Assembly (NCBI GenBank): GCA_903898675.1
Contig: CAIUGM010000036.1
Coordinates: 62,001-126,000, forward strand
Source of the DNA: an uncultured Verrucomicrobiota bacterium
Lineage (GTDB): Bacteria; Verrucomicrobiota; Verrucomicrobiia; Opitutales; Opitutaceae
DNA: 64,000 nucleotides
Direction of reading: 5' to 3'
Under the pieces are notes generated by a model. It was not told where the DNA came from. It saw only the letters and a list, made by a program, of their open reading frames with translations, and made no database searches. Both the position numbers and the translations under genes were made by a program. Shown piece after piece: positions 1-25,401 of the stretch; the stretch's first letter is position 1; every line of letters starts with the position of its first letter.

Positions 1-983
1 CTGACCCGCAGCAATTCCTTTCGGGTCCGACGGTCCAGCAAGACAACCGAACCGTCCATGGTGCCAAACATCAGGGTATCCTTGTCCCGCAGGCTGACGC
101 CGGAAAAAATCGGTGCACCGGCGTCATAGCGCCAGAGTTTGGCGCCACTCGCGGCCGCGATGGCATAGAGCCCGCCATCACTGGAGCCCGCGTAGACCAC
201 GCCATCCTGGACGAGGGGAATCGCCGTGCGGTGGTTGAAGGTCGGGTTATCCGGCACGGGCTTGCCCGCCAGTTGCTCGTCATGCAGGGCAACGGTCCAG
301 CGCGGGAAACCATCGGCGCGATTGAGGGCCACCAAATTCACTTTGCCGTCGATGAAGAAAATCGTGTCGTCCGTGACCACGGCCGCACCATCGATCCGGC
401 TGGCGCCGGTCCATGTCCATGCCTCGGCGCCATCGGCGACGCGCAACGCGTGAAATTTGCCGTCGGCTGTCCCAAGATAGACGAAGCCTCCCGCAACCAC
501 AGGCGGAGCCCAGGTGGGCGAGCCCAGGAAACGGGTCCACACCGCCGCAGGCGGCAACGGATCAGGCGAGTCGGAAGGGGGCGCGGAAAACACCCCGCCC
601 CGGTGCAGCCTCATCGGCAGCCGGCCAAGGGTGAAGGTGCCGGTCAGTTCATCTCCTTCCAGGTGGAGCCTGGTGTTGAACGCCGGGGTAATGGCGTAGC
701 TGCCGCCACCGCCGACCTCCACCGGGATGCCGAAAGTGACGGCATAGGTGAACATCGCGGGGAAGTTGAGCTTGAAGATCATCGCGCCGTCCTGGGCGCG
801 GAAAAATTCGAACCCGATCTCAGCCGCGGTGCCTTGCGGTGCGGTCACTGTCCCGGTCCAAATCCCCTCAATCGGGTCAGGTTTGGATGGCAGCGAAGCC
901 GGGTCTGACGGGACCGCGGACAGCGGCCGGACGGCGACGAAGCCGGCGAGCACCACGGCGGCAATGAAGAACCAGGTTTTCAA
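1..983 (-). CDS. PQQ-like beta-propeller repeat protein, 3' end outside window
   Basis: Not in the ORF track because it is open at the window edge. Reverse-strand reading gives ...WTRFLGSPTWAPPVVAGGFVYLGTADGKFHALRVADGAEAWTWTGASRIDGAAVVTDDTIFFIDGKVNLVALNRADGFPRW...VVYAGSSDGGLYAIAAASGAKLWRYDAGAPIFSG..., typical PQQ/BamB-like blades. N-terminal hydrophobic segment from a probable TTG start at 983. Confidence 0.8.
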   Translation of the reverse strand, partial: MKTWFFIAAVVLAGFVAVRPLSAVPSDPASLPSKPDPIEGIWTGTVTAPQGTAAEIGFEFFRAQDGAMIFKLNFPAMFTYAVTFGIPVEVGGGGSYAITPAFNTRLHLEGDELTGTFTLGRLPMRLHRGGVFSAPPSDSPDPLPPAAVWTRFLGSPTWAPPVVAGGFVYLGTADGKFHALRVADGAEAWTWTGASRIDGAAVVTDDTIFFIDGKVNLVALNRADGFPRWTVALHDEQLAGKPVPDNPTFNHRTAIPLVQDGVVYAGSSDGGLYAIAAASGAKLWRYDAGAPIFSGVSLRDKDTLMFGTMDGSVVLLDRRTRKELLRV

Positions 984-1103
984 AATAATGCAGGGGGCGG
1001 TCCGACCGCAGACAACGGGCAGCGCAAGGCGGGCCGGGGCACGGCTCAAGCCCAGAACGACGAAGCGCAGAATTTCCGGGCCCGGCGGGCAATCCGACCG
1101 GCC

Positions 1104-1135
1104 AAACAAAGGGGCCTTCGAGAGTCGAAGGCCCC
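1104..1135 (-). terminator. Rho-independent terminator downstream of TonB receptor gene
   Basis: Perfect 11-bp stem GGGGCCTTCGA-gag-TCGAAGGCCCC followed on the minus strand by TTTGTTT. Confidence 0.85.
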
Positions 1136-1159: not shown

Positions 1160-4129
1160 TTAGAATTTCTTGCTCAGCTGAACATACACGAACCGGTTGG
1201 TCGAATCGAACATGAAGCCCGGATAGCCTGAGGCGTTGCTGCCGCCGCCGGAGGAACTGGGCGGGTTCTGGTCGAGGATATTGAAGGCCCCGACGGTCAG
1301 GGTGGTGCCATCCAGATACCGGCCGAGCTGCTGGTGCAGCTTGAAAGTCGCCTGCACGTCAAACGTGACAAAGGGTTTCACTTGGAACGGATTCCCGTTC
1401 GCGTCGAGGTCCTCAAAGCCGCTGGTGTAATTGCAAACCACCCGCGCACTCCAATCGTTTCTCGCCCAGTCGACGCTGCCCTTGCTCTTCCAACGGACGT
1501 AACCATCCAGGCCCTGTCCCGAACTGGCGTCGGTGTTGACGAGCTCGACGAGCGGAACCCCGGCCACGACCGACTGCTTGAAGGACCAGAGGTAGGTCCC
1601 GCCGATCGCAAAGTCAAAGCGACCCAGCGTGCCGGTCTGCAGCAGATAGCTCGCGCCGGCGTCGATGCCCCTGGCGATCGTCTTGCCCAGGTTGTGATAC
1701 GGCGCTGTCACGGAGAGGATGTTGCCCGAGCCGTCCAACAGGACACTTTCGCCGCGCAGCAGGCCGCCCGGCGCCGGGGTCCCGTCCGGGTGATTGCCGA
1801 AGTAACGGTCCAACACATCCTGCGCGGCAGCGAAGACGGTGCCCACGCGCTCCACGTGCCAATAGTCGGCGTTGATGGTGAAGCCCTTCAACGCGGCGGT
1901 TTTGGGCGACCAGACGACGCCCGCCGTGTAGGTGGTGCTGGTCTCGGGCGCCAGTTGGGAGTTCGAGCCCGACTGGATCGGATTTTCCGGCAGGATGTTC
2001 GTCTTGTCGCGGGGATCTATCAGGGTCAGCAGGCTGTTGACCGTGCCGCCATAGAGCTCGAACAACGAGGGCTGGCGGATGCCGCGGCCGTAACTGGCGC
2101 GCAGGGTCAGCGTGTTGTCGAACGGCTGGTAGCGGAGGGCGACCGACGGCAGCAGCTTGGTCGTGTTGGCCGAGAGGAAGTTCTCTTCGCGCAAAGCCAC
2201 GTCGGCGCCGAGGCTGTAGAGGCCGGCGATGTTCTGCTTCGGACTGAACACCGGCACATTGATCTCGCCGAAGAAGGCGATCACCTTGCGCGCCTTGTCG
2301 ACATAGGATTCCTGGCCGGTGCCATCGTCGCCCAGCAGGCTGATCGCATCAGGGTTCACGTTCAGCGATTCGACGCGGTAATCCACGCCGAGGGCGGCCC
2401 CGACGTCACCAGCGGGCAAGGCGAACAGCTCACCATTGCTGGCCGTAAAAAACGGATTGCGCATCGCGCTGCTGTCCTGGTCCTTCACCCGGACCGACGC
2501 ATAGGCGACCGTGAGCGCGTTGCTCGCGATGGGATTGTCCGGGGCATAGCCGAACGGATTATACGCGTGAGTGGTGCCGATGTACGAGGAACTGGCCGGA
2601 TCAAAGATCGGGTCATTCTGGTTCAGGATCTGGTTGAAGCGGGAGGTCGAAACCAGCTTGAAGTCCTGGTGAACACCGATGGTGCTGTAACGCATGCCGG
2701 AATCGAAATTCCAAGTCCCCAGCACATTGTCCACCCGGACGCCCGCCGTGGCCATGAAGGCGTCGCTGTCCGTCCGCAGGACCCGGTTGCCAAATTCAAA
2801 CAGGCGGAATTTCGTGCCGCCCGTGATATCGATGTTGAACGGGTTGTACGGATTGTAGGCCCCGGCCGCGGCCGCCCGGGCGCGACCGTCAGGCAGCGGC
2901 AGCGGATTGGGCGTGTTGGCGGGAATCACATATTCCACTGACCCGGGAGTTGTGAACGTGCCAGAGGCGAGCGGCGCCAGCTGCGACTCCGAGAAGTTGT
3001 GGTTATAGGACGCGTCCCAATAGAACTTGATGTTTTTAGTCCCGAAAAGGTTGCGCTCGCCGTTCACGAAGGCGCCGTAGTGGGAAAAGGCGGGATAGGC
3101 CCCGGAGGTCTGGTTGTAGTTCCAAACCGATTGGCGCCCGTTGCTGTAGATGTACTGGTTTGCCGGGGTATTGCCGGTGTTGGTGCTGCCGGGCACGATA
3201 TTGCCGTCCGCCGGGACCGAGTTGCCGCCCGCGGCACCGGGGAAAACGCCGGGATCCGCAAAGAAGACATCCTTTGTCACACCCCGAGGCCGGGTGCCGG
3301 CCGGGAGACCAAGGGCCTGGTCGTAGGCGGCCGTCGTGATCTGCGCGTTGATGGGAATCGCGTTCGTGCTGACATAGGGGGGAATGACCGAGTACGAGCG
3401 GTCGCGATTATAGATCGCCGCACGGGAGTAGTAGCTCAGACCGGCGGTGAAGCTGCCGTGCTCATTGCTGGTGCCCTCGACGTAGTTCGCCACGACCTCG
3501 TGGGAATCCTTGCTCGTCGTGTTGCCGAAACGGACCGTGGCCTCGGAGCCTTCATAATTCTTGCGCATGATGATGTTCACGACGCCGGCGACGGCATCGG
3601 CGCCATAAATCGCCGAGGCGCCGCTGGTCAGGACCTCGATGCGTTCCACGGCGGCGAGCGGGATGCTGTTGAGATCGACGAAGGCGGACTGCCCGCCGGA
3701 GCCGATGGGATAGTTGGCGACGCGATGGCCGTTAATGAGCACCAGCGTGGCCTCGGGCCCAAGGCCGTGAATCGACGTGGAGGAAGCCGCCGGCGTGAAG
3801 CCCGTCGCGTTGTTGGAAATCGGGACAGCGCCACCGTTGGACGCCGTTATTTTTTGCAACAGGTCGGCCGCCGTGGTGTAACCGGTCTTGTCGATTTCCT
3901 TCCGGTCGAGGGTGATGACCGGCAGCGCCGTCGCCTCGCCCGCGGTCAGTGTGGAGGGAATATTGGATCCGGTGACCACATATTTGTCCAGGGACACGGA
4001 CGTTTCAGGGGCGGCGGATGAGTCCGCCGACTGGGCAAGAGCGGCCGAGGCCGCGAACAAAGGCAGGGCTGCCAGCGCCAGAAGGCGCGAATAGCCCGAC
4101 CGCCTGTCGATTAGGTGTGTCGAGTTCAT
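1160..4129 (-). CDS. TonB-dependent receptor
   Basis: Signal peptide, plug motif VVTGSNIP...GLGPEATLVLINGHRVANYP...VERIEVLTSGASAIYGADAVAGVVNIIMRKNYEG, C-terminal FVYVQLSKKF. Start placed at MNSTHL. Confidence 0.93.
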   Translation of the reverse strand: MNSTHLIDRRSGYSRLLALAALPLFAASAALAQSADSSAAPETSVSLDKYVVTGSNIPSTLTAGEATALPVITLDRKEIDKTGYTTAADLLQKITASNGGAVPISNNATGFTPAASSTSIHGLGPEATLVLINGHRVANYPIGSGGQSAFVDLNSIPLAAVERIEVLTSGASAIYGADAVAGVVNIIMRKNYEGSEATVRFGNTTSKDSHEVVANYVEGTSNEHGSFTAGLSYYSRAAIYNRDRSYSVIPPYVSTNAIPINAQITTAAYDQALGLPAGTRPRGVTKDVFFADPGVFPGAAGGNSVPADGNIVPGSTNTGNTPANQYIYSNGRQSVWNYNQTSGAYPAFSHYGAFVNGERNLFGTKNIKFYWDASYNHNFSESQLAPLASGTFTTPGSVEYVIPANTPNPLPLPDGRARAAAAGAYNPYNPFNIDITGGTKFRLFEFGNRVLRTDSDAFMATAGVRVDNVLGTWNFDSGMRYSTIGVHQDFKLVSTSRFNQILNQNDPIFDPASSSYIGTTHAYNPFGYAPDNPIASNALTVAYASVRVKDQDSSAMRNPFFTASNGELFALPAGDVGAALGVDYRVESLNVNPDAISLLGDDGTGQESYVDKARKVIAFFGEINVPVFSPKQNIAGLYSLGADVALREENFLSANTTKLLPSVALRYQPFDNTLTLRASYGRGIRQPSLFELYGGTVNSLLTLIDPRDKTNILPENPIQSGSNSQLAPETSTTYTAGVVWSPKTAALKGFTINADYWHVERVGTVFAAAQDVLDRYFGNHPDGTPAPGGLLRGESVLLDGSGNILSVTAPYHNLGKTIARGIDAGASYLLQTGTLGRFDFAIGGTYLWSFKQSVVAGVPLVELVNTDASSGQGLDGYVRWKSKGSVDWARNDWSARVVCNYTSGFEDLDANGNPFQVKPFVTFDVQATFKLHQQLGRYLDGTTLTVGAFNILDQNPPSSSGGGSNASGYPGFMFDSTNRFVYVQLSKKF

Positions 4130-4313
4130 GCGTTTGCTAACTTGTGTGTTGGTCACGAGGGGTGGCTCCGCCTCGTCTGACACAAGTAGGCAGGCGATCC
4201 GGTCTGCGGCACAATTGCCGTGCGATCAACCTACAGGAATGCGATGCCAGCCGCGCGTCCCGGCCCTTGAAAAACCAACGGGGCGCGATCAAGCGTCCGC
4301 CCGGCGCTGCCGG

Positions 4314-5117
4314 CTAAAGGTGCGCCTTGAGGTCGTGCACAAAGGTGCGGCTGACCTTCAGCTTCGTGCCGTTGGTCAGCTCGACGTTATATTCGCCGTA
4401 AAGCGCCGTGCTCGCCTTCCGCATGTGCCGCAGATTCACGATCGTCGAGCGGTGAATGCGCACAAACTGGCCGGGGGTGAGTTTCTCCATGATTTTCAGC
4501 AAGGACATCCGCACGAAGCGTGACTTGTCCGCCGTGTGCAGGCGCACATAGTCGCCATCCGACTCGATCCAGAAGATTTCCTCCGGCGACATCACATGGA
4601 TTTCCCCGTCGCAGCGGATGAACAGCCGCCCATCACCCTCGGGCCGCGCCGCCGGCGCACCGTCCGGCCCGGCCTGGAGCCGTTGTAGCGCAGCCATGAC
4701 CTCGTCCAGCCGGTGGGCGAAATGATGGCGGTCCTTGAGCCGGACCGCCGCCTTGGCCCTCGCCAGCGCGGCGGCAAAGCGATCCCGGTTAAAGGGTTTC
4801 AGGAGATAATCCACCGCCTGCACCTCGAAGGCCTGTAGCGCGAAATGATCGTAGGCGGTCACAAACACCACCTGGGGCAGTCGCTCCGCCGGCAGTTTAG
4901 TGAGCACCTCAAAACCCGTCATGCCCGGCATCTGCACGTCGAGGAAAAGCAGCTCGGGCTGGTGCTGCCGGATGGCTGCGATGGCCTGCGGGCCGTTGCT
5001 GCACTGGGCCACGAGCTCGATCTCGGCATCGTCGTGGAGCAGGGCGGTGACATTTTCGCGGGCCAGCACCTCGTCGTCGACGATCATGGTCCGGATGGGG
5101 GTAGGCGGTGGATTCAT
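4314..5117 (-). CDS. LytTR-family response regulator
   Basis: N-terminal receiver (MIVDDEVLARENV...LLFLDVQMPGMTGFEVL...VFVTAYDHFALQAFEVQAVDYLLKPF) and C-terminal LytTR domain (IFWIESDGDYVRLHT...FVRIHRSTIVNLRHM). Confidence 0.93.
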   Translation of the reverse strand: MNPPPTPIRTMIVDDEVLARENVTALLHDDAEIELVAQCSNGPQAIAAIRQHQPELLFLDVQMPGMTGFEVLTKLPAERLPQVVFVTAYDHFALQAFEVQAVDYLLKPFNRDRFAAALARAKAAVRLKDRHHFAHRLDEVMAALQRLQAGPDGAPAARPEGDGRLFIRCDGEIHVMSPEEIFWIESDGDYVRLHTADKSRFVRMSLLKIMEKLTPGQFVRIHRSTIVNLRHMRKASTALYGEYNVELTNGTKLKVSRTFVHDLKAHL

Positions 5118-6256
5118 GGGGCTTGGGTTTTGAATGGCAGGATGATCTCGGCGCGCACGCCGCGCGGCGGCTGGTCGCGCAGCCGCAGGCGGGCCTCGTC
5201 ACCGTAGAGCATGTGCAGGCGCGTGATCGTATTCTGCACGCCGATGCCATGGTACAGCGCGGCCTCGTCCCGGGGCAGGGCCGGGCCCTCGTTATAGACC
5301 GTAAGGATCAGCCGGGTGCCGTCGCGCTCCGCGCCGATGCGCAAGAGACGGGCCTCCGCATCCTGGGAGATGCCGTGCTTCATGGCGTTCTCCGCCAGCG
5401 GCTGCAGGATCAGGCTCGGGATGAGCGCCCCCTGGCACCGGGGCGCAATGTCGAACTCGACCCTCAGGCGGTCCTGGAAGCGGATGCGCTCGATCTCGAA
5501 ATAGCGCCGCAGGAAATCGATCTCGTGCTCCAGAGTTTCCATGGCCTCCTGGCGGTGGGCGAGCGAGCGGCGCAGCAGCTCGCCGAGACCGGCCACCACA
5601 TCCTCCGCCTCCCTCGTGCGCTGGTTGCGGATCAGGCTCGTGATGGAATTAAGGGTGTTGAACAGAAAATGCGGATGCAGCTGCATCTTCAATGCATCCA
5701 GGCTGGCCCGCACCAGGCGGGTCTCCAGCCGCGCGTTGGCGATCCGCAACTCGCCCGTCAATTGCTGGCCCGAGCGCCATTCGCGGTAGTAGCTCACGGC
5801 GTAGAGGGCGAAGGTGAGCAGCAGGTAGACCAGGGCAGGCGTGACACTCCATCCCCCCGACCAGCGAAGGTCCCGAATCACCACGGGCAGAAACGAAAGC
5901 GGCAGGTGGTTGGCCACGGCGACCCGCGCCGCCTCCACGACAATAAATGTCCCCGCCACCACCACCGCGGCGAGGGCGTGCAGGGCGAGCGTCCAGGGCC
6001 ACCGCCGGTCGATCAGGATCAGGTTTTTTTGCAGCCACAGGATACCCGGGACCAACAACCACCACAGCGATTCGATGGGCCACTGGTTGAGCCTGGTGTA
6101 GCGGAAGGCGGCCTGCGGTCCACCGCCGAGCCACTGCGCCGCATCCCAGAGCAAAAACAGCGTCAAGACCACCGTGCCCGCCAGCCAAAGCTGGAACCAG
6201 AAGCGACCGCGGCGCCACAGGGGAGCAAGGGAGGGCAAGGGGTCGGCGATCATCAT
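5114..6256 (-). CDS. LytS/YehU-type sensor histidine kinase (His_kinase + HATPase)
   Basis: Several TM segments, then LKMQLHPHFLFNTLNSITSLIR...LILQPLAENAMKHGI...GIGVQNTITRLHMLYG. Start MMIADP overlaps the upstream gene stop (ATGATGA); end overlaps the regulator start (ATGA). Confidence 0.92.
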   Translation of the reverse strand: MMIADPLPSLAPLWRRGRFWFQLWLAGTVVLTLFLLWDAAQWLGGGPQAAFRYTRLNQWPIESLWWLLVPGILWLQKNLILIDRRWPWTLALHALAAVVVAGTFIVVEAARVAVANHLPLSFLPVVIRDLRWSGGWSVTPALVYLLLTFALYAVSYYREWRSGQQLTGELRIANARLETRLVRASLDALKMQLHPHFLFNTLNSITSLIRNQRTREAEDVVAGLGELLRRSLAHRQEAMETLEHEIDFLRRYFEIERIRFQDRLRVEFDIAPRCQGALIPSLILQPLAENAMKHGISQDAEARLLRIGAERDGTRLILTVYNEGPALPRDEAALYHGIGVQNTITRLHMLYGDEARLRLRDQPPRGVRAEIILPFKTQAP

Positions 6257-7911
6257 AGGTCCGGGGCTGGGCGGCGGTTTCCCGTCGCGGCCAGATCGAG
6301 CCAGATTCTTTTTAGCGACTGGCGGGCCAGGGGATCGGCGTACCAACCCTGCACCTCATTCGCGGTCATGGCCAGCCGACGCTCGAACATCATGGGCACC
6401 GTGGGCACGGCGGTCAGGGCCAGCCGTTCCGCCGCCGCGAGCCGTTCCAGCCGCTCGGGCCCGGTCTGCGTGTTGGCTTCCTTCAGAAGTGCAACCACCG
6501 CCGGATCCATCCACTTCATGTTGCTGGCTTCGGCCGGCATCAGGAATGCACTCAGCAGATCGCCGGCATCCGGCACCGTGGCCAGCAACTGCCCGTACAA
6601 CACGTCGTAGTCCCCCGCCCCGATCCGTTTCTGGTACAGGGTCATCGGCTCGTAGGTGAGATGAATGCGAATGCCGAGTTCCTGGAACCAGCGTTCGCTC
6701 CACGCGGCGGGGTACGGATCCGCTTTAACCCAAAGCGGGAGCGCCATGGTCAGGACGGGAAACCCCGCCCCGCCGGGATAGCCTGCGGCCGCCAGCAGGC
6801 GCCGGGCCTCCCGGGCGTCTTCCCGCATCATGACCAGGCCCTCCCGCCCCGGCATCGTGGGCACCCAGGACCAGGCTGGCACCATTCTTCCACCCGTATC
6901 AAATTTTGCGATCGGACCGGCCCGGTCCTGGGCCAGCGCCAGCGCCTGGCGCACCCGGATATCGCGCAAGGGACCACGCGTGACATTGAAGTCCAGCGAA
7001 CTCACCGCCAGGGCCAGTTCGCTCTCCAGTTTGAGGCCGCGATTGGAGAGCCTCCCCTCCTTTAACCCAAACGGGGTCGGCGACAGCAGATCAACGACGC
7101 CGGCCTCCACCAGCAGCGGGGCCATCGACAAACTGTCGGTCCGGACAAACTGGATACCGGTCAGGCGCACCCCGGCCCGGTCATGAAAATAGTCGCAGGC
7201 TTCCAGCCTGAGCCCGTCGGCGTTCGCCCGGACCAGATGAAAGGGACCGTTGGTCACCAGCGTCGCCGGCTGTGCAACGTAGGCCCGGCTCGCAAGGATT
7301 GCCTCACTGGTCCGGTGCCAGGGCGAGAGCAGCGGGTCCGCCAGTTCAGCCACCAAGGTCGACCGCGGACCATCGAGGTCGATCCGCAGGGTCAGGTCGT
7401 CCAAGGCATGCACCCCCACGGCCGAAGGATCCTTGATCCGGCCCTGTTGAAAGGCCGCCGCATTTTTCAGCGGGTAAAGCGCCTCGGCCGTTTCCTCGCC
7501 CGGTTGCAGCAGACGGATCCAGCTGCGCACAAAATCCTGGGCCGTCACGGGGTCGCCGTTGCTCCACCTTGCCCCCGGGACCAGCTTGAGCGTCAGGCTT
7601 ACTTTATCCTCGGACCACGCCCAGCTTTGGGCGGCAGCCGGCCGCGGCACACCGGTCGCAGGATCACATTCCACCAGCGGCTCCCAAAGACTCAGCAGCA
7701 GCTGGTTGTCCTGCGCGAGCGGGAAAACCCGCTGGTGCGGATTCGGCACCATTTCCTGGGCGGAAGCGACCCGCAGCACATTGCGATCCTCGGGCCGGCG
7801 CGGGATCACCGGCAGCGCTTCCCGCGGCTCGAGAAATACCATGGCTCCCAGTCCCACGAGCACCAGCAAAGCCAGGCTGGTCCACCCATGGAAGCGGAGG
7901 TTCGTCGTCAT
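6253..7911 (-). CDS. ABC-type peptide-binding protein (SBP_bac_5/OppA-like), N-terminally anchored
   Basis: MTTNLRFHGWTSLALLVLVGLGAMVFLEP then NVLRVASAQEMVPNPHQRVFPLAQDNQLLLSLWEPLVECDPATGVPRPAAAQSWAWSEDKVSLTLKLVPGARWSNGDPVTAQDFVRSW, characteristic of solute-binding protein family 5. Confidence 0.88.
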   Translation of the reverse strand: MTTNLRFHGWTSLALLVLVGLGAMVFLEPREALPVIPRRPEDRNVLRVASAQEMVPNPHQRVFPLAQDNQLLLSLWEPLVECDPATGVPRPAAAQSWAWSEDKVSLTLKLVPGARWSNGDPVTAQDFVRSWIRLLQPGEETAEALYPLKNAAAFQQGRIKDPSAVGVHALDDLTLRIDLDGPRSTLVAELADPLLSPWHRTSEAILASRAYVAQPATLVTNGPFHLVRANADGLRLEACDYFHDRAGVRLTGIQFVRTDSLSMAPLLVEAGVVDLLSPTPFGLKEGRLSNRGLKLESELALAVSSLDFNVTRGPLRDIRVRQALALAQDRAGPIAKFDTGGRMVPAWSWVPTMPGREGLVMMREDAREARRLLAAAGYPGGAGFPVLTMALPLWVKADPYPAAWSERWFQELGIRIHLTYEPMTLYQKRIGAGDYDVLYGQLLATVPDAGDLLSAFLMPAEASNMKWMDPAVVALLKEANTQTGPERLERLAAAERLALTAVPTVPMMFERRLAMTANEVQGWYADPLARQSLKRIWLDLAATGNRRPAPDL

Positions 7912-8051
7912 TGTGTTCGGGCCTAGGCTATAGTCCGGCCCTACCAACGCAACGCGCGGCTGGCGGCTCAATCCACGTGCGGCCGGCCGGCCGGCCGGCG
8001 CGACGAAGCACCAAATTTACCGGCCGAGTCTCACGCCTCCCGCCCCTCCGG

Positions 8052-9278
<1,227 letters not shown>

Positions 9279-9370
9279 AGTAAAATCGGATTGTTGGTCA
9301 TCGCCCCAGTCGCGCAAAGGAAAAATCGCGGGATTTACGGCATATCCAACCCGGCACCGACCGGACCGAC

Positions 9371-10306
9371 TCAGGCCCGGTTGCGCGCGAGCATGGCCAG
9401 GATCGCCTTCTGGACGTGCAGGCGGTTCTCGGCCTCGTCGAATATCACGCAACGGGGATCATCGAGCACTTCCTGCGTCACTTCCTCGCCCGCGTGCGCC
9501 GGCAGGCAATGCATGAACAGGGCATCGAGCTTTGCGGCGGCAAACAGCTGCTTGGTGACCTGGAACGGCATCATGCGGCGCTGCCGCTCGGCGGCCTCGC
9601 CTTCCTGGCCCATGCTGGCCCAGACGTCCGTGTACACAATGTCGGCCCCCGCCACCGCCTCGTAGGGATCCGCCGTGTAGTGGAAGGTGCCGCCGGTCTT
9701 CGCCGCCAGCTCGCGAATCTCCTTGGTCGGTTCGTACCCCGCCGGGCCGCCAAGCGAGACGTTCATCCCGAACAGGTTGGCGCCGAGGATCCAGGAGTTG
9801 GCCATGTTGAAGCAGGTGTCGCCGAGGAAGGCCACCTTGCGTCCCTTGAGTGACGCCAAGAGGTCACCCTGCGGACCCGCCCAGCGCTCGGCGGCCGTGA
9901 ACGCGTCCGTGTAGATCTGGCAGGGGTGCAGAAAGTCGGTCAGGGCATTGACCACCGGCAGGCCGCCGTGGGCGGCCAGCTCCTCGATGTCGGTCTGCGC
10001 AAAGGTTCGCACGATCAGGCCGTGCACAAACCGCGACAGCACCTTGGCGGTATCGGAAATGGTTTCGCCCCGGCCGATCTGGATGTCGTTGGTGTTAAGA
10101 AAGAGCGGATTGCCGCCGAGCTCATGGATGCCCACCTCGAAGGACACGCGGGTGCGGGTGCTCGACTTGGCGAAGATCATCGCCCACGTCTGCCCGGCCA
10201 GCGGCTTCTCGTGCTGGCCGCGCTCGCGCTTGTACCGCCGCGCCAGCGCAAAGACCTGGGCCACTTCATCGCGGTTGAAATCGGTTTCCTTCAGGAAGTG
10301 TTTCAT
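9371..10306 (-). CDS. argF: ornithine carbamoyltransferase
   Basis: [21 protein letters not shown]...HPCQIYTD...[14 protein letters not shown] motifs. Confidence 0.96.
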
Positions 10307-11538
10307 GGCTTTGCGGATGGGGAGGCCTTCTGGGCGAGGACGGTGCGGATAATGGCGGTGGCGCGGTCGAGTTGCTCCGGGGTGGCGATCAGGGGCGGCA
10401 GCAGGCGGATGCTGTTGCCGCCGGCCGCGACCACCAGCAGGCCTTCCTCCCGGAGGGCCGCGACCAAGGGTGGCGGTTCACCGTGCAGCCTCAGGCCGAT
10501 CATATAGCCGCGACCGGTCACGGCCTTCACCTGTCCGGGGAAATCCGTGACCAGCTTTTCCAGCTGAATCCGCCAGGCCGCGCCGTTGGCCTGCACCTTC
10601 TGGAGCAGCTGGTCCCGCTCCATGACATCGAGCACGGCCAGCGCGGCGGCACAGGCCAGGGGCGTGCCGCCAAAGGTCGAGCCATGCGAGCCGGGCTGGA
10701 AGAGCTCCGCGTGCTTCTCGGCCGCCCAGATCGCACCCATCGGATAGCCACCGCCCAGCCCCTTGGCCATGCCGATGGCGTCGGCCCGCACCCCGGAGTG
10801 CTGGAAAGCGTAGAACGTGCCGGTGCGGCCCAGGCCGCATTGCACCTCGTCGAGCATGAGCAGCAGGTTGTGCTGGTCGCACAACTTGCGCAGGCCCCAC
10901 AGAAATTCATCCGTGCAGGCCACGACACCCCCCTCGCCCTGGATGGTCTCAAGGAAAATGGCGGCGGTCTGGTCGTCGACCAGGTCGGCGAAACTCTGGA
11001 GGTTGTTGAGTTCGCCAAAAACAAACCCCGGCACCAGCGGCCGGAAGCCCTTCTGGATTTTTTCCTGCGGGGTGGCGCTCATGCCGCCGAACGTTCGGCC
11101 ATGAAAGGCGTTCTTCGCGCAGATGATCCTGATGCATTTCCCCTCCTCGCCGGACTTCCGGATGCCGTGCAACCGGGCCAGCTTGATCAGGCCCTCGTTG
11201 GCCTCGGCGCCGCTGTTGCAGAAAAAGACGCGGCCGGGACCGGCCTGCTGGACCAGCCGCCGGGCCAGTTCGCCCTGATTCGGGTGACGGAAAAGATTGC
11301 TGACATGGATCAGCTCGCCCGCCTGCCGGCGAATGGCCTCGACCCAGGCGGGATGACAATGGCCCAGCGCGGCCACGGCCACGCCCGAGGTGAAATCGAG
11401 ATACTCGCGGCCGGTGTCGTCCCACACCGACACACCCAGCCCGCGCACCAGCGTCAGCGGCGGGCGCCCGTAGTTCTTCATGACGTAGGCGTCATAAAGC
11501 TCGGCGGTGTTGGTGCGGACGATGGCGGGTTGGGACAT
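10303..11538 (-). CDS. argD: acetylornithine aminotransferase (class III PLP transaminase)
   Basis: YLDFTSGVAVAALGHCHP...FFCNSGAEANEGLIKLAR...NAFHGRTFGGMSAT...LLMLDEVQCGLGRTGTFYAFQ; in arg cluster. Confidence 0.95.
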   Translation of the reverse strand: MSQPAIVRTNTAELYDAYVMKNYGRPPLTLVRGLGVSVWDDTGREYLDFTSGVAVAALGHCHPAWVEAIRRQAGELIHVSNLFRHPNQGELARRLVQQAGPGRVFFCNSGAEANEGLIKLARLHGIRKSGEEGKCIRIICAKNAFHGRTFGGMSATPQEKIQKGFRPLVPGFVFGELNNLQSFADLVDDQTAAIFLETIQGEGGVVACTDEFLWGLRKLCDQHNLLLMLDEVQCGLGRTGTFYAFQHSGVRADAIGMAKGLGGGYPMGAIWAAEKHAELFQPGSHGSTFGGTPLACAAALAVLDVMERDQLLQKVQANGAAWRIQLEKLVTDFPGQVKAVTGRGYMIGLRLHGEPPPLVAALREEGLLVVAAGGNSIRLLPPLIATPEQLDRATAIIRTVLAQKASPSAKP

Positions 11539-11633
11539 GATTTACGATTTTGGATTTACGATTTACGATTGTCGGGGCGATTCAAACTAATCCGCCCGAC
11601 TCTGGTTAGGCGCTGAATCGTAATTCGTAAATC
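11539..11633. repeat. intergenic dyad of degenerate ~7-nt (ATTTACG) repeats
   Basis: Left arm GATTTACGATTTACGATT (11553-11570) is complementary to AATCGTAATTCGTAAATC (11616-11633) with one mismatch; a nested GTCGGGGCG/CGCCCGAC dyad lies inside; an additional GATTTACGATTTT copy lies at 11539. Confidence 0.85.
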
Positions 11634-11653
11634 AAACTTCGCGATTCAATCAA

Positions 11654-12535
11654 TCAGCCGTGCACGATTTCTGTCCCTACACCTTGATCGGTGAAAATCT
11701 CGAGCAGCAGGCTGTGCGGCATGCGCCCGTCCACGAAATGGACGCGCTGCACGCCTTCCTGCAGCGCGCGCACGGCGCTCTGCACCTTGGGCCGCATGCC
11801 CTTGTCGATGATGCCCTTCTTCTTCAAGCCCTCCACCTCGCCGACCTTGACGGTGGAAATGAGGGTCGTGGGATTCTTCGGATCCGCGAGCAGTCCCGGG
11901 ACGTCGCTCATGTACACAAGCCGGCGGGCGCGCAGGGCGCTGGCCACGCGGCCGGCCACGGTGTCGGCATTCACGTTGTACGGTTTGCCATCGTAGCCCT
12001 CGGCCACGGGGGAGATCACCGGCATGAAACCGTCCGCGATCTCCTTCTTGATGAGCTTCACCTTCACCTCGGTCACATCGCCGACGTAGCCGAGATCACA
12101 GGGATTGCCGTCGTCGTCCACGCTGAGCTTGTTGCAGACGATCACGCTGTCGCCGGGCAGGCCCTTCGGCCGGGCTTTGACCGCGGCGAGCGTATCGCAG
12201 ACGTTCTTGTTCACGACCTCGTCCAGGGTTTTTTTCACGATGGCGATCGTCGCCTCGTCGGTCACGCGCAGGCCGTTGACGAAATTCGGTTTCAAGCCGG
12301 CCCCGTCCATGGCGCGGGAGATCGCCTTGCCGCCGCCATGCACCACGACGACGTTGATCCCGACCGCGGCAAGGAAGGCGATGTCGGTGGCGACACTGGT
12401 GCGGACCGTCGGGTCCGGGTCGTCCATGAAACTCCCGCCGTATTTGACCACGAAGGTGGAGCCGTGGAAGTCCTGGATGTAAGGCAGGGCCTCAAGAAGC
12501 ACGCGCGCTTTGGCAATGACCTCGGTAACGTCCAT
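11654..12535 (-). CDS. argB: acetylglutamate kinase
   Basis: [13 protein letters not shown]...[20 protein letters not shown]...[31 protein letters not shown]. Confidence 0.96.
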
Positions 12536-12641
12536 CAGTCGTTCAGCAGCGGAGGAAATTGGATTGCCCGGCGTTCATCAGTTTTTCGCGTGGAAGAATC
12601 TGTTAAGGCAATGCGCGCAGATTTCACTAACAAAATGCGGC

Positions 12642-13874
12642 TCACTCGCTCTTGTTGTAATTAACATAGCCCTCGGTCAGGTCGGTCGCCAGCAACCGGA
12701 AGGCCGCCTTGCCGAGGTGCAGGTTGAGGGTGATCGTGAACCGCCGCGCCTTGACGATCTCCTTCCACTTCGGCTTCAGCTCGGCGTGCGGCCGGCCGGC
12801 GGTCATCGCGGGCGTGTCGTTGTAGAGAATATCCAGCTTGGCCTCGACCAGCTTGGCCCCGGCATAGCCGGCCGCGTCGGCCAGGCGGCCCCAGTTCGGG
12901 TCCTCGCCGTACCAGGAGGATTTAACCAGCAGGGAGTTCCCGATCGCGCGCGCCACCTTCTCGGCATCCTCCGCGGACGCGGCCCCGGCCACCTTCACCT
13001 CGACCACCTTGGTGATTTTTTCGCCGTCGGACACGATCTTGTCCGCCAGGGCGTCGCAGACCTTCCACACCGCCTCGGCAAACAGGACCCGCAGCTCGCG
13101 CGGGCTCTTGTCGCCCACGCTCACGCCGGAGTGGCCGTTGGCCAGCATCAGCACGGTGTCGTTGGTGCTCATGTCGCCGTCCACCGTGATGCAGTTAAAA
13201 GTCCCGGTGACCGCCTCGGAGAGGGTTTTCTGCAGGAAGCTGCGGGGAACGGAGAAATCCGTCGCGAGAAACGCCAGCATCGTGGCCATGTTGGGCTGGA
13301 TCATGCCGGCGCCCTTGGCGACGCCCGCGACGACATGTTTCTTGCCGTCGTAGGTGAAGCTCACGGTCACGGTCTTGGCGCGGGTGTCCGAGGTCAGGAT
13401 CGCATCCGCAGCCTTCTTGCCGTGGACCGGCGTGCGGCCCTTTTCCGAAACCGCCCGTTCCAGGCCCTTCAGCAGGCGGTCCATCGGCATCGGCTGGCCG
13501 ATGCGACCCGTGGAGCAGATGAAAAACGACGCGGGCTTGAGATTGAGCGAGGCGGAGGCGCGCTGGGCGGTCGCCTGGGCATCGCGCAGGCCGTCGGCGC
13601 CGGTACACGCGTTGGCGTTGCCCGAGTTGGCGATGATGCCATGGAACGGCCCGCCCTCGGCGAGGTGTTTCTGGCAGAGCAGCACCGGGGCGGCCTTCAC
13701 GGCGTTCTTGGTGAACGTGCCGGCCGCGGTGCAGGGCCGGAGGGAAAAAAACAGCGACAGGTCGAGGCGCTTCAAATCGTTCTTTTCACGAATGTCGCAG
13801 GCCACGCCCGCCGCCTCAAAGCCCGGCACATCGGTGAGGCCGGCCGTATCAGGGGTAACAATCAATTGGGTCAT
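12642..13874 (-). CDS. argJ: bifunctional glutamate N-acetyltransferase/ornithine acetyltransferase
   Basis: KGAGMIQPNMATMLAFLATD (ArgJ cleavage-site region), GIIANSGNANACTG, VDGDMSTNDTVLMLANG; start at MTQLIVTP. Confidence 0.96.
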   Translation of the reverse strand: MTQLIVTPDTAGLTDVPGFEAAGVACDIREKNDLKRLDLSLFFSLRPCTAAGTFTKNAVKAAPVLLCQKHLAEGGPFHGIIANSGNANACTGADGLRDAQATAQRASASLNLKPASFFICSTGRIGQPMPMDRLLKGLERAVSEKGRTPVHGKKAADAILTSDTRAKTVTVSFTYDGKKHVVAGVAKGAGMIQPNMATMLAFLATDFSVPRSFLQKTLSEAVTGTFNCITVDGDMSTNDTVLMLANGHSGVSVGDKSPRELRVLFAEAVWKVCDALADKIVSDGEKITKVVEVKVAGAASAEDAEKVARAIGNSLLVKSSWYGEDPNWGRLADAAGYAGAKLVEAKLDILYNDTPAMTAGRPHAELKPKWKEIVKARRFTITLNLHLGKAAFRLLATDLTEGYVNYNKSE

Positions 13875-13913
13875 GGGAGGGGAGCGGGGTTCGACACCGG
13901 GCGCGGCCGGCAA

Positions 13914-14945
13914 TCAGGCGAGGCCGGCGGTTTCGGCGAAGCCGCACCAAAGGTTCATGATCTGCACCGCCTGGCCGCTCGCGCCCTTGACCAGGTTGTC
14001 GAGCGCCGAGGTCAGGACGAAATTTCCTGTCCGGGCGTCGTGCACGGCCGACAGATCGACGCGGTTGGTGCCGGTGACGTAGGCCGTGTCGGGCGTTTCC
14101 CCGCTGGGCAGAATCGCCACGAACGGCCGGCCGGCATAGGCGGCATGCCAGGCGGCGTACAGCGACTCGATCGTGGCGCCCCTCGCGGCCGGGACCGTGA
14201 TGGTGGTCGCGATGCCGCGCCGCATCGGCGCGAGGTGGGGATTGAACTGCACGACGACGGCCGAACCCGCGGCCGCGGAAAGCTGCTCCTCGATCTCGGC
14301 CAGGTGGCGGTGCTTGGTGAGACCGTAGGCCTTGGCGCTCTCGGCCCGCTCGACGTAGAGGTACTGCTCATCGAGCTTCTTGCCCGCGCCGCTGACGCCG
14401 CTGAAGGAATTGACCACGATATGCTCGCGCGTGACGAGCCCGGCCTGAAGCAGGGGCACGAGCGGCACGAGCGTGCTGGTCGGGTAGCAGCCCGGCGCGG
14501 CGGCGAGCTTGATCTCGGTCAGCCATTTCGGGTCGGTCAGCTCGGGCAGGACGAAGCGCGCCTGCGGCAGCAGGGCCGGGGCGTGGTGGTGGCCGTAGTA
14601 TTTCTCGTAGGTCGCGAGATCGGCGACGCGGAAATCCGCGCTAAGATCGATGACCTTGCGCCCGGTGGGCACGAGGGCCTGGGCGAAATCCGCCGCGGCG
14701 CCATGCGGCAACGCGAGAAACCACACGTCGATATCGGAGCGCGCGGCGAGGGCCGCGGGGTCGGACTCGCTGAACTTGAGCTGCGCGGCCGCCGGGCCGC
14801 GCAGGGACGGGATGATCGCGGCCAGCGGCTTGCCCGCGTGCTGCCGCGAGGTGACCACAGTCAGCTTGGCCTGCGGATGACCGAGGAGGAGCCTGACCAG
14901 AACTTCGCCGGAGTAACCCGACGCGCCGACTACACCGACATTCAT
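13914..14945 (-). CDS. argC: N-acetyl-gamma-glutamyl-phosphate reductase
   Basis: MNVGVVGASGYSGEVLVRLLLGHPQ...AAPGCYPTSTLVPLVPLL...FSGVSGAGKK. Confidence 0.96.
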   Translation of the reverse strand: MNVGVVGASGYSGEVLVRLLLGHPQAKLTVVTSRQHAGKPLAAIIPSLRGPAAAQLKFSESDPAALAARSDIDVWFLALPHGAAADFAQALVPTGRKVIDLSADFRVADLATYEKYYGHHHAPALLPQARFVLPELTDPKWLTEIKLAAAPGCYPTSTLVPLVPLLQAGLVTREHIVVNSFSGVSGAGKKLDEQYLYVERAESAKAYGLTKHRHLAEIEEQLSAAAGSAVVVQFNPHLAPMRRGIATTITVPAARGATIESLYAAWHAAYAGRPFVAILPSGETPDTAYVTGTNRVDLSAVHDARTGNFVLTSALDNLVKGASGQAVQIMNLWCGFAETAGLA

Positions 14946-22344: not shown

Positions 22345-25300
22345 TTAGAACTTCTTGCTGAGCGAGACGTAGATGTAGCGACCGACTGAGTCGTACAGGA
22401 AGCTCGGATAGCCCGTGGAGTTGTTACCCGAACCGTAGGCGACCGGCGGCGCCTTGTTGAAGGCGTTCTGCACCCCGAGCGTCAGCTTGGTGTCGCGCAG
22501 GTAGGAACCGAGCTCGCCGTGGATCGTGTAGATGAACTGGGCATCCCAGGTGACCGTCGAGGCGACCTTGAAGAGGTCACCATTCAGATCGTAGTCTTGG
22601 AAGCCATCGGTGAAGATGGCCGAGACACTGGCACCGAAGCTCTTGTAAGCCCAGTCCACCGTGCCACGACCCTTCCAGCGGAGGTAGCCGTCCTCGGCGT
22701 TGCCACCGGAGGCGTCCTGATTGACGAATTCAAACAGGGGCGTGCCCGGGAGGGAGGCCGACTTGAAGGACTGCAGGTAGCTGGCCGCGACCGCGTAGTT
22801 GAAGCGACCGAAGCTGTCCGTCTTCTGCAGGTAGGAGGTCGAGATATCGACACCCTTCGCGATCGTCTTACCCGCATTCAAGTAGGGCGAGATGATCTGC
22901 TCAACGTTGCCGCCGGCATCGAAGAGGATTTGCTCACCCGTGGCCAAGCCACCCGGCTTCGCAACGCCCTGGGCGTCGTGGCCGAAGTAGCGATCAAGGG
23001 TGTTCTGGAGGTCAACGGAGACCGTGCCGTCACGCTCCACCTTCCACCAGTCGACCGCGATCGTGAAGCCTTCCAAGTGGAAGATCTTCGGGGTCCAGAC
23101 GACACCGAAGGTCATCGAGTTTGTGGACTCCGACTTCAGGAGCCGGTTGCCCTTCACGATCGTGGGGGTCTCCTGCAGCGTCGCACCCGTGCGCGGGTCC
23201 GTCACGCCAAGGAGGCTGGCGATGTTGCCGCCGTAGAGCTGATAGAGCGACGGCTGGCGGATGCCCTTGCCGTAAGAACCACGCACCACAAGGGTGTCGT
23301 CGAACGGCTTCCAGAGGATGCCGAATTTCGGCACCACATGGGTCTCGCTGTTGGTGAGGAAGTCCTCGTAGCGGGCCGCGGCATTGAAGCTCAGGTCATG
23401 CACACCGACGACGTTCATCTTGGTGCTGACAAGCGGCACCTGGACTTCGGCGTAAACGGCGCCGACCTTGCGGCGGGCGGTGGTGGTGGCGGCAGCCGAG
23501 CTGCCGATCGTGTCACCCAGCTGGTTGAGCGAGTCGGGCGACTGCGTAAGCTGCTCATCGCGGTAATCAACACCGGCGGCGAAGCCCGCGTCACCGGCCG
23601 GAACCGTGAAGAGCGTCGGATTACTGATACCGAAGTAGAGATTGCCGAGGGATGAAACATCGAAGTCCTTCACCCGTGAGGTTGCATAAGCAACCACGGC
23701 CTGGTTGGACGCGATCGGGTTGCCATAGTAGCCGAACGGATTGTAGGCCGTGGTCGTGCCGATGTAGCTGGCGCTCGTCGGATTGAAGATCGGGTCGGCC
23801 GAGTTCAGCACCTTGTTGAAGCGCGAGGTCGAGACCAGGGTGTCATCCGTGTGGAGGGCCACCTGGCTGTAGCGGAAGCCCATGTCGGCGCTCCAGTTCT
23901 CGAGGAAGTTATCGGCGCGGATACCGGTCGTCACCATGAAGGCGTCGTTGGTGTCGCGGAAGATACGGTCACCGAAGTCAGCCAGACGGAAGCGCGTGCC
24001 GTCCGTGATGTCCTGATTGAACGGATTATTTGAGTTGTAGGCACCGTTGGGAGCCGCGCGCTGCACATTGCCATTGGCATCCACCGTCGTGCCGACGCTG
24101 GCAGACCAACCGGCGGGCAACGGCGTACCAGCAGCGACCTGCTGAACGGCCGTACCCCTGACGATCGAGAGGATCGGGTTCGCCGTACGGGCGGGAATGA
24201 TCAATGACGTCTGGCCGGGGGTGATGAAGCTGCCGGTGGCGGAAGGCGCCAGGCGGTTCTCCGTGTAGTTCCGCTGGAACGAACCATCATAGTAGAACTT
24301 GATGTTGTCCGTGCCGAAGATCTTGCGGTCACCATTGATGATCATGCCATAGCGGAGCGACTCCGGATACGAGCTCGACCACTGGTTGTAGTTGGTCACA
24401 GAGCTACGACCGTTGCTATAGATGTACTGGTTCGCCGGGGTCGTACCGTTGTTGGTGCTGCCCGTCACACGATTGCCGTTCGGGTCGGTGTGGTTGCCGC
24501 CAGCCGCGCTCGGGAAGGCACCGGGGGTACCGAAGAACACAAGCTTGGTGGCGCCCACGCCGGCGGGACGCGTGCCAGGCGCGAGGCCCAGGGCATCATC
24601 AACGGCGAGGAGCCCGATCTGTGCGTTGATCGGGGAGGAGTTCGAGCTCAGGAACGGAGGAACCGCCGAGTAGCTGCGGTCGCGGTTGGCGATGCCACCG
24701 CGGCTGTAGAAGTTGAACCCGACGAGGATGCTGCCCTTGTCGTTCGCCACGCCCGTCGTGATGCTGCCGGTGAAGCCGGAAGAGTCCTTCTGGGTCGTAT
24801 TGCCGTAGTTCAGGTTGACCTCGGTCCCCTCGTAATTCTTGCGGAGGATGATGTTGATGACACCGGCGACGGCGTCAGCACCGTAGACGGCGGAGGCGCC
24901 GTCCTTCAGGACTTCGATGCGCTCCACGGCCTGCAGCGGGATCGTGTTCAGGTCGACGAAGGCGGTCGTGCCGCCCGAGCCCTGCGGATAAGTTGCCACG
25001 CGGTGGCCGTTGATCAGCACCAGGGTCGCTTCCGGCCCGAGGCCGTGCAGCGAGGTCGAGGAGGCCGACGGCGTGAAGCCCGTCGCGTTGTTCGACAGCG
25101 GCACCGAGCCACCGTTCGACACCGTGATCTTCTGCAGCAGGTCGGCCGCCGTCTGGTAGCCGGTCTGGTCGATCGCCTTGCGATCGAGGATCACGACCGG
25201 GAAGGTACCGGCCTCAACGGCCGTCTCGGTCGTCGGGATGTTGGATCCGGTGACCACAAACTTGTCCAGTTTCACGGACTGGTCGGTGGTGGAGGCATCT

Positions 25301-25401
25301 GCTGCCTGAGCAAAAGCGGCCTGGGCCGCGAACATCGAAAGCCCTGCGCCAATAATCAGCGCCAAAGGCTTCCGTAGGTTTCTTACGGAGCTATTGTTCA
25401 T
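22345..25401 (-). CDS. TonB-dependent receptor (paralogue of 1160..4129)
   Basis: VKLDKFVVTGSNIPTTETA...GLGPEATLVLINGHRVATYPQGSGGTTAFVDLNTIPLQAVERIEVLKDGASAVYGADAVAGVINIILRKNYEG...YIYVSLSKKF. Confidence 0.94.
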   Translation of the reverse strand: MNNSSVRNLRKPLALIIGAGLSMFAAQAAFAQAADASTTDQSVKLDKFVVTGSNIPTTETAVEAGTFPVVILDRKAIDQTGYQTAADLLQKITVSNGGSVPLSNNATGFTPSASSTSLHGLGPEATLVLINGHRVATYPQGSGGTTAFVDLNTIPLQAVERIEVLKDGASAVYGADAVAGVINIILRKNYEGTEVNLNYGNTTQKDSSGFTGSITTGVANDKGSILVGFNFYSRGGIANRDRSYSAVPPFLSSNSSPINAQIGLLAVDDALGLAPGTRPAGVGATKLVFFGTPGAFPSAAGGNHTDPNGNRVTGSTNNGTTPANQYIYSNGRSSVTNYNQWSSSYPESLRYGMIINGDRKIFGTDNIKFYYDGSFQRNYTENRLAPSATGSFITPGQTSLIIPARTANPILSIVRGTAVQQVAAGTPLPAGWSASVGTTVDANGNVQRAAPNGAYNSNNPFNQDITDGTRFRLADFGDRIFRDTNDAFMVTTGIRADNFLENWSADMGFRYSQVALHTDDTLVSTSRFNKVLNSADPIFNPTSASYIGTTTAYNPFGYYGNPIASNQAVVAYATSRVKDFDVSSLGNLYFGISNPTLFTVPAGDAGFAAGVDYRDEQLTQSPDSLNQLGDTIGSSAAATTTARRKVGAVYAEVQVPLVSTKMNVVGVHDLSFNAAARYEDFLTNSETHVVPKFGILWKPFDDTLVVRGSYGKGIRQPSLYQLYGGNIASLLGVTDPRTGATLQETPTIVKGNRLLKSESTNSMTFGVVWTPKIFHLEGFTIAVDWWKVERDGTVSVDLQNTLDRYFGHDAQGVAKPGGLATGEQILFDAGGNVEQIISPYLNAGKTIAKGVDISTSYLQKTDSFGRFNYAVAASYLQSFKSASLPGTPLFEFVNQDASGGNAEDGYLRWKGRGTVDWAYKSFGASVSAIFTDGFQDYDLNGDLFKVASTVTWDAQFIYTIHGELGSYLRDTKLTLGVQNAFNKAPPVAYGSGNNSTGYPSFLYDSVGRYIYVSLSKKF

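Follow-up and report, generated by a model that had tools for sequence, protein, structure and literature searches.

The window (the whole 64,000-nucleotide stretch of DNA that was analysed, at positions 62001-126000 of contig C36 in the 3.5 Mb genome G000) carries a set of four genes on its minus strand. The first, at 7911-6253 (-), runs from ATG at 7911 to TGA at 6253 and encodes an orphan OppA-like solute-binding protein (SBP) of family 5 with 552 aa (PF00496). It is followed by the genes for a LytS-type histidine kinase of 380 aa (6256-5114 (-); PF06580, E=2.9e-25) and for a response regulator of 267 aa with receiver and LytTR domains (5117-4314 (-); PF00072, PF04397). After a gap of 184 nt comes the gene for a TonB-dependent receptor of 989 aa (4129-1160 (-)), with PF07715 (Plug) and PF00593 (barrel). 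As judged by Pfam, a PF06580 kinase is paired here with a receiver-LytTR regulator. All four genes, their coordinates and their shared strand were as the initial annotation had given them.

The initial annotation had also described overlapping stop and start codons, and these were present. The SBP stop and the kinase start share ATGA at 6253-6256 (-) (in full ATGATGA, 6256-6250), and the kinase stop and the regulator start share ATGA at 5114-5117 (-). The SBP and kinase genes meet at RTGA in 12 of the 13 loci read, including the window, the exception being G207. The kinase and regulator genes do so in 12/12 loci read, again including the window. Since the junctions are kept across other loci, the overlaps are not due to chance. 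In G207 (L162 10139-11968), the SBP frame lacks the usual stop and extends about 50 residues into the kinase gene region.

An arginine cluster lies upstream on the same strand (8052-14945 (-)). It begins with argG (8052-9287, identified by Pfam), followed by argF, argD and argB (named from sequence). Of 10 same-genus loci, 9 have argG next to the SBP gene, and G205 is the exception. Between the two genes, at 7985-8000, there is a short GGCCGGCC repeat with no T run after it. Downstream of the receptor, a PQQ/BamB-like gene (3-1109 (-)) leaves the window; G113 and G207 also have related genes close to the locus. A scan of the region for sigma-70 promoters and terminators gave nothing informative.

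The solute-binding protein

The SBP matched PF00496 (SBP_bac_5) with 166 bits against a cut-off of 32.4 (E=1.3e-48). Its AlphaFold2 model had a mean pLDDT of 88.1, with the first 27 residues unreliable, and the best Foldseek matches were MppA, OppA and DppE (E 3e-42 for MppA). Judged by the model, the OppA fold is retained. Hydropathy predicts an N-terminal membrane anchor at approximately residues 8-27 (7831-7890 (-)), with a maximum of 2.11 at residue 18. None of the 14 SBPs linked to a two-component system has a lipobox at the end of this hydrophobic segment. The N-terminal segment without a lipobox was thus correctly recognised at the outset. A lipobox is present in 4/4 other SBP_bac_5 proteins of the host genome, and the strict lipobox pattern is matched by 82/105 related SBPs; in the SBP of the window the lipoprotein anchor has been lost.

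We also found no ABC permease on the contig, in line with the earlier remark that no permease or ATPase genes accompany the SBP. All 13 PF00528 matches in the genome sit on other contigs. With a transmembrane anchor, no lipobox and no permease on its contig, the SBP does not resemble a lipoprotein or soluble Opp/Dpp subunit.

Asp419 of OppA is the ligand of the peptide amino terminus. The corresponding column holds Asp in 47/52 aligned SBPs, and the SBP of the window has Thr445 (codon at 6577-6579 (-)). The nine other same-genus loci likewise have Thr; Ser is found in G157, and the SBPs of G074 and G040 differ around this position. The ligand of the SBP is probably other than a standard oligopeptide.

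Co-occurrence of the SBP and the kinase

We searched 252 genomes of the same family with one profile for the SBP clade and one for the kinase clade. The SBP profile separated 13 members scoring 664-895 bits from all other proteins, which scored at most 367 bits; a 14th member, in G047, is truncated where its contig ends. The kinase profile gave 14 members at 363-760 bits, and the remainder scored at most 233 bits. The genomes with the SBP clade and those with the kinase clade are the same set (14 vs 14). Across these 252 genomes the kinase was never retained without the SBP within the kinase clade. The synteny that the initial annotation had proposed to check held, and the order SBP-kinase-regulator was seen in 13/13 whole loci. 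In a maximum-likelihood tree the 14 SBPs form one branch (support 100/99), separate from the ABC-type SBPs of the same family and of other phyla, which indicates that the clade is of single origin.

An SBP of this kind within a transporter operon of a relative, with no two-component system, had been named in advance as evidence against a sensory role. No such case was found among the 252 family genomes, where the two clades coincide 14/14. A scan of genome contigs for SBP orthologues returned just ABC-type SBPs with at most 35% identity, none of them with the kinase close by. Several of the nearest named relatives in that scan belong to Opitutales or Opitutaceae, so the window is probably from Opitutaceae.

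These results bear on another reading, in which the SBP sits next to the kinase by accident and serves an ABC importer whose other genes lie elsewhere, such as the Opp permeases of the genome. The full OppA fold would suit such a role, and the genome does have a pair of Opp-type permease genes on contig C5. However, that pair is already flanked by three lipoprotein SBPs of its own, whereas the SBP studied here is anchored by a transmembrane segment, has no lipobox, belongs to a separate clade and occurs with the kinase in 14/14 cases. On the grounds of clade, anchor and co-occurrence with the kinase we rejected this role, which we regard as highly improbable.

The kinase and its outer loops

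Hydropathy of the kinase fits four transmembrane segments joined by two short outer loops, so the earlier description of a kinase with transmembrane helices and no periplasmic domain was accurate. Neither hydropathy nor alignment revealed an extracytoplasmic domain that could receive the SBP. The 5TMR_LYT input domain is also absent, and Pfam detects PF06580 alone. The alignment shows the motifs PHFLFN, ENAMKHG and GIG.

The two predicted periplasmic loops carry conserved residues. In loop 1 (residues ~41-61, 6074-6136 (-)), the FR pair F51-R52 is invariant in 12 SBP-linked kinases. In loop 2 (residues ~111-138, 5843-5926 (-)), which has an N-x-L-P motif, N116, L118, P119 and D129 are invariant in the same 12 SBP-linked kinases. 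Both loop motifs are missing from 13 SBP-less homologues, including the second kinase of G074 and of G040. The outer loops are the natural candidate site for contact with the SBP.

In G074 and G040 the gene order is argG, kinase 2, regulator 2, receptor, SBP, kinase, regulator, receptor. In two genomes of other genera, a second unit of kinase, regulator and receptor, lacking an SBP, separates argG from the SBP system (L166 12132-17259, L167 12031-17099). G020, G064, G023 and G071 likewise have kinase-regulator pairs with receptors close by and no SBP. Because such pairs exist, the placement of LytS/LytTR next to a TonB receptor is recurrent, and the SBP resembles a sensor added to a LytS/LytTR pair. 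A kinase family whose members occur with and without an SBP offers a natural comparison of how an SBP becomes a sensor.

The same homologues can be read in another way. The kinase might sense alone through its transmembrane helices, as BtsS does, with an SBP that merely modulates or represses it or that has lost ligand binding. Close kinase homologues do stand beside TonB receptors with no SBP (the second unit of G074 and G040, and the four genomes just named), the canonical Asp is lost from the SBP, and BtsS is a precedent, with pyruvate bound in its membrane domain (PMC10653868). However, the outer loops differ between SBP-linked and SBP-less kinases, and no case was seen in which the SBP was lost and the kinase kept. 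We consider sensing by the kinase alone unlikely.

The promoter element between regulator and receptor

The regulator-receptor gap contains the element GTAGN5TCGCACN4ATTG at 4212-4234 (-), which we propose as the regulator site. An exact match occurs once per genome in 7/21 same-genus genomes (G000, G037, G147, G203, G204, G207 and G208), always in this gap, and no exact copy was found elsewhere in the 21 genomes, including those without the system. Since the element was derived from these very sequences, its discovery carries no independent weight; its uniqueness in each genome and a second copy in G147 do. That second copy, the sole further credible near-match, lies ahead of a second tandem receptor. 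The distance from the end of the element to the receptor ATG is 82 nt in the window and 81-88 nt across loci, and identity is 0.71 within the element vs 0.36 just downstream. A degenerate copy is carried by G113. The regulator's likely single target would be this switch ahead of the receptor gene.

The element was not seen in the other-genus loci. G197 and G205 keep SBP, kinase and regulator with no adjacent receptor and no element nearby, both of which were either lost or never present (L160, L163); elsewhere in these two genomes there were only matches with 2 mismatches, at the frequency of a reversed control. Control of a receptor is therefore not universal, since 2/14 loci have neither receptor nor element.

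LytTR sites usually consist of two 9-11-nt repeats with a spacing of 11-13 nt (PMC4847170). Within the element, a TCGC repeat with a 19-nt period was the best of the 21 periods tried and statistically weak (3/300 shuffles), and we rejected it as a clean LytTR direct repeat. Autoregulation through a copy of the element upstream of the SBP gene was also rejected, as the genome has no second match.

The element might instead serve another regulator or basal transcription, in which case the two-component system would control something else. The two loci that keep the system without receptor or element fit this alternative, as does the weak result of the direct-repeat test. Against it, the exact element is confined to genomes with the system, once in each, beside the regulator gene. 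We judge this alternative quite unlikely and keep the LytTR regulator as the proposed partner of the element.

Divergent receptors with a conserved promoter element and signal peptide

Median identities over eight same-genus loci are 89% (ArgG), 77% (regulator), 68% (kinase) and 55% (SBP). The receptors at this locus are of at least four types, and the mature receptors of same-genus loci are mostly ~28-30% identical. Cross-species comparison showed a conserved receptor signal peptide of 33 residues (4031-4129 (-)). When the receptor of the window was compared with the unrelated receptors that sister species have at the same locus, the signal peptides were 45-61% and the mature proteins 28-33% identical. 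Between G203 and G207, identity is 65% for the SBP, 92% for the regulator and 62% for the signal peptide, and 29% for the mature receptor. Between G147 and G208 it is 69% for the SBP, 77% for the signal peptide and 28% for the mature receptor. A conserved element and signal peptide with divergent mature receptors are seen in the window (4031-4234) and in L039, L040, L041, L158, L159, L161 and L162.

The signal peptide is normally the fastest-diverging part of a receptor. An example is the receptor paralogue at 22345-25401 (-), the nearest relative seen, which is 56% identical to the receptor of the window in the mature part and 30% in the signal peptide. This paralogue has a different signal peptide and lacks the promoter element. 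A DNA pattern of the signal peptide common to four species matched this locus alone in 21 genomes.

The simplest reading of these sequences is that the mature receptor has been replaced while the promoter and signal peptide stayed in place. Alternatively, the 5' coding RNA may be under constraint. Combining replacement with the sensory system, the locus may be a regulated receptor socket: an SBP-gated LytS/LytTR pair, its OppA-fold sensor docked on a short-loop kinase, would keep the promoter and signal peptide, and the mature receptor would repeatedly be replaced by recombination. We give this proposal an even chance. If it is true, unrelated receptors in sister species fall under one sensory system. 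With a conserved promoter and signal peptide and divergent receptors, it becomes possible to test directly, within one genus, how outer-membrane specificity evolves under a fixed regulatory circuit.

SBP identity in pairs with the same receptor type is 51% (G147-G037) and 61% (G204-G208), vs the median of 55%. In these two pairs only, SBP divergence does not track receptor type. What the SBP senses may therefore be a general cue and not the cargo of the receptor itself. Comparison of the receptor with solved structures gave only weak matches of the plug, to the BtuB, colicin I and enterobactin receptors, as a guide to cargo.

Discussion

We propose that the SBP gates a three-component system that controls the TonB receptor through the element, and we consider this probable. 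The uncleaved N-terminal helix would tether the OppA-fold SBP to the inner membrane, with the binding domain in the periplasm. There the SBP could contact both short outer loops of the kinase and so serve as its missing sensor. When a periplasmic ligand binds or leaves, kinase activity would change and with it the phosphorylation of the LytTR regulator, which may then bind the element and set transcription of the receptor. The SBP-kinase contact, the ligand, the direction of control and the binding of the regulator to DNA are what we infer.

The three-component interpretation appears well supported by comparative sequence data, because of the 14/14 co-occurrence, the kept gene order and overlaps, the single origin of the SBP, its anchor, the loop motifs, the unique element and the lack of a permease on the contig. 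It is weakened by G197 and G205, by the element being unseen in other genera, by the mismatch between SBP and receptor type, by the weak direct repeat and by the precedent of AgtS and AruS. For the SBPs adjoining those two kinases there is no evidence of kinase activation (PMC11113362), so adjacency is not proof of a functional link between SBP and kinase.

SBP-gated two-component systems are already known, namely XylFII-LytS, CuaDSR and CBP-ChiS. SBP-dependent three-component systems are recognised by an SBP that is co-encoded with a kinase and a regulator and has no permease of its own, which is the arrangement found here. To our knowledge, ChiS does not form a LytS/LytTR pair. In XylFII-LytS of Clostridium beijerinckii, as Li et al. 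2017 is summarised in PMC11113362 and PMC10384115, an extra SBP beside a LytS-named kinase is its sensor; by the same accounts xylose is the ligand of XylFII, which docks onto an extracellular domain of the kinase, and the structure of the complex has been solved. The locus of the window is alike in having an SBP next to a LytS-named kinase, with a proposed sensor role. Unlike XylFII-LytS, it has a family 5 SBP, a short-loop kinase, a LytTR regulator and an adjacent TonB receptor.

CuaDSR of Ruminiclostridium cellulolyticum is similar in being an operon of orphan SBP, kinase and regulator upstream of an uptake system. It differs in that CuaD is a family 1-like lipoprotein, CuaS has a large extracytosolic section, CuaR is of the AraC type and the target is an ABC importer (PMC10384115). 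In CBP-ChiS of Vibrio, a kinase whose targets include an outer-membrane porin is governed by a periplasmic protein that binds oligosaccharides (PMC7564644), but CBP also has a role in transport (PMC10384115). BtsS/BtsR and YpdA/YpdB of E. coli are LytS/LytTR pairs that each target a transporter gene; however, their kinases have the 5TMR_LYT domain and work without an SBP (PMC10653868, PMC5552118).

We found no description in the open-access literature of a family 5 SBP combined with LytS/LytTR and a TonB receptor, nor of Opitutaceae TonB receptors with two-component systems. The known SBP-gated kinases have a sizeable outer docking domain, and the cases compared act on ABC importers or on porin and catabolic genes. 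What is novel here is a kinase with apparently almost no outer part, a membrane-tethered family 5 SBP that lacks the canonical peptide-binding residue, and a likely TonB receptor target. The most unexpected part of the locus is the receptor-socket pattern.
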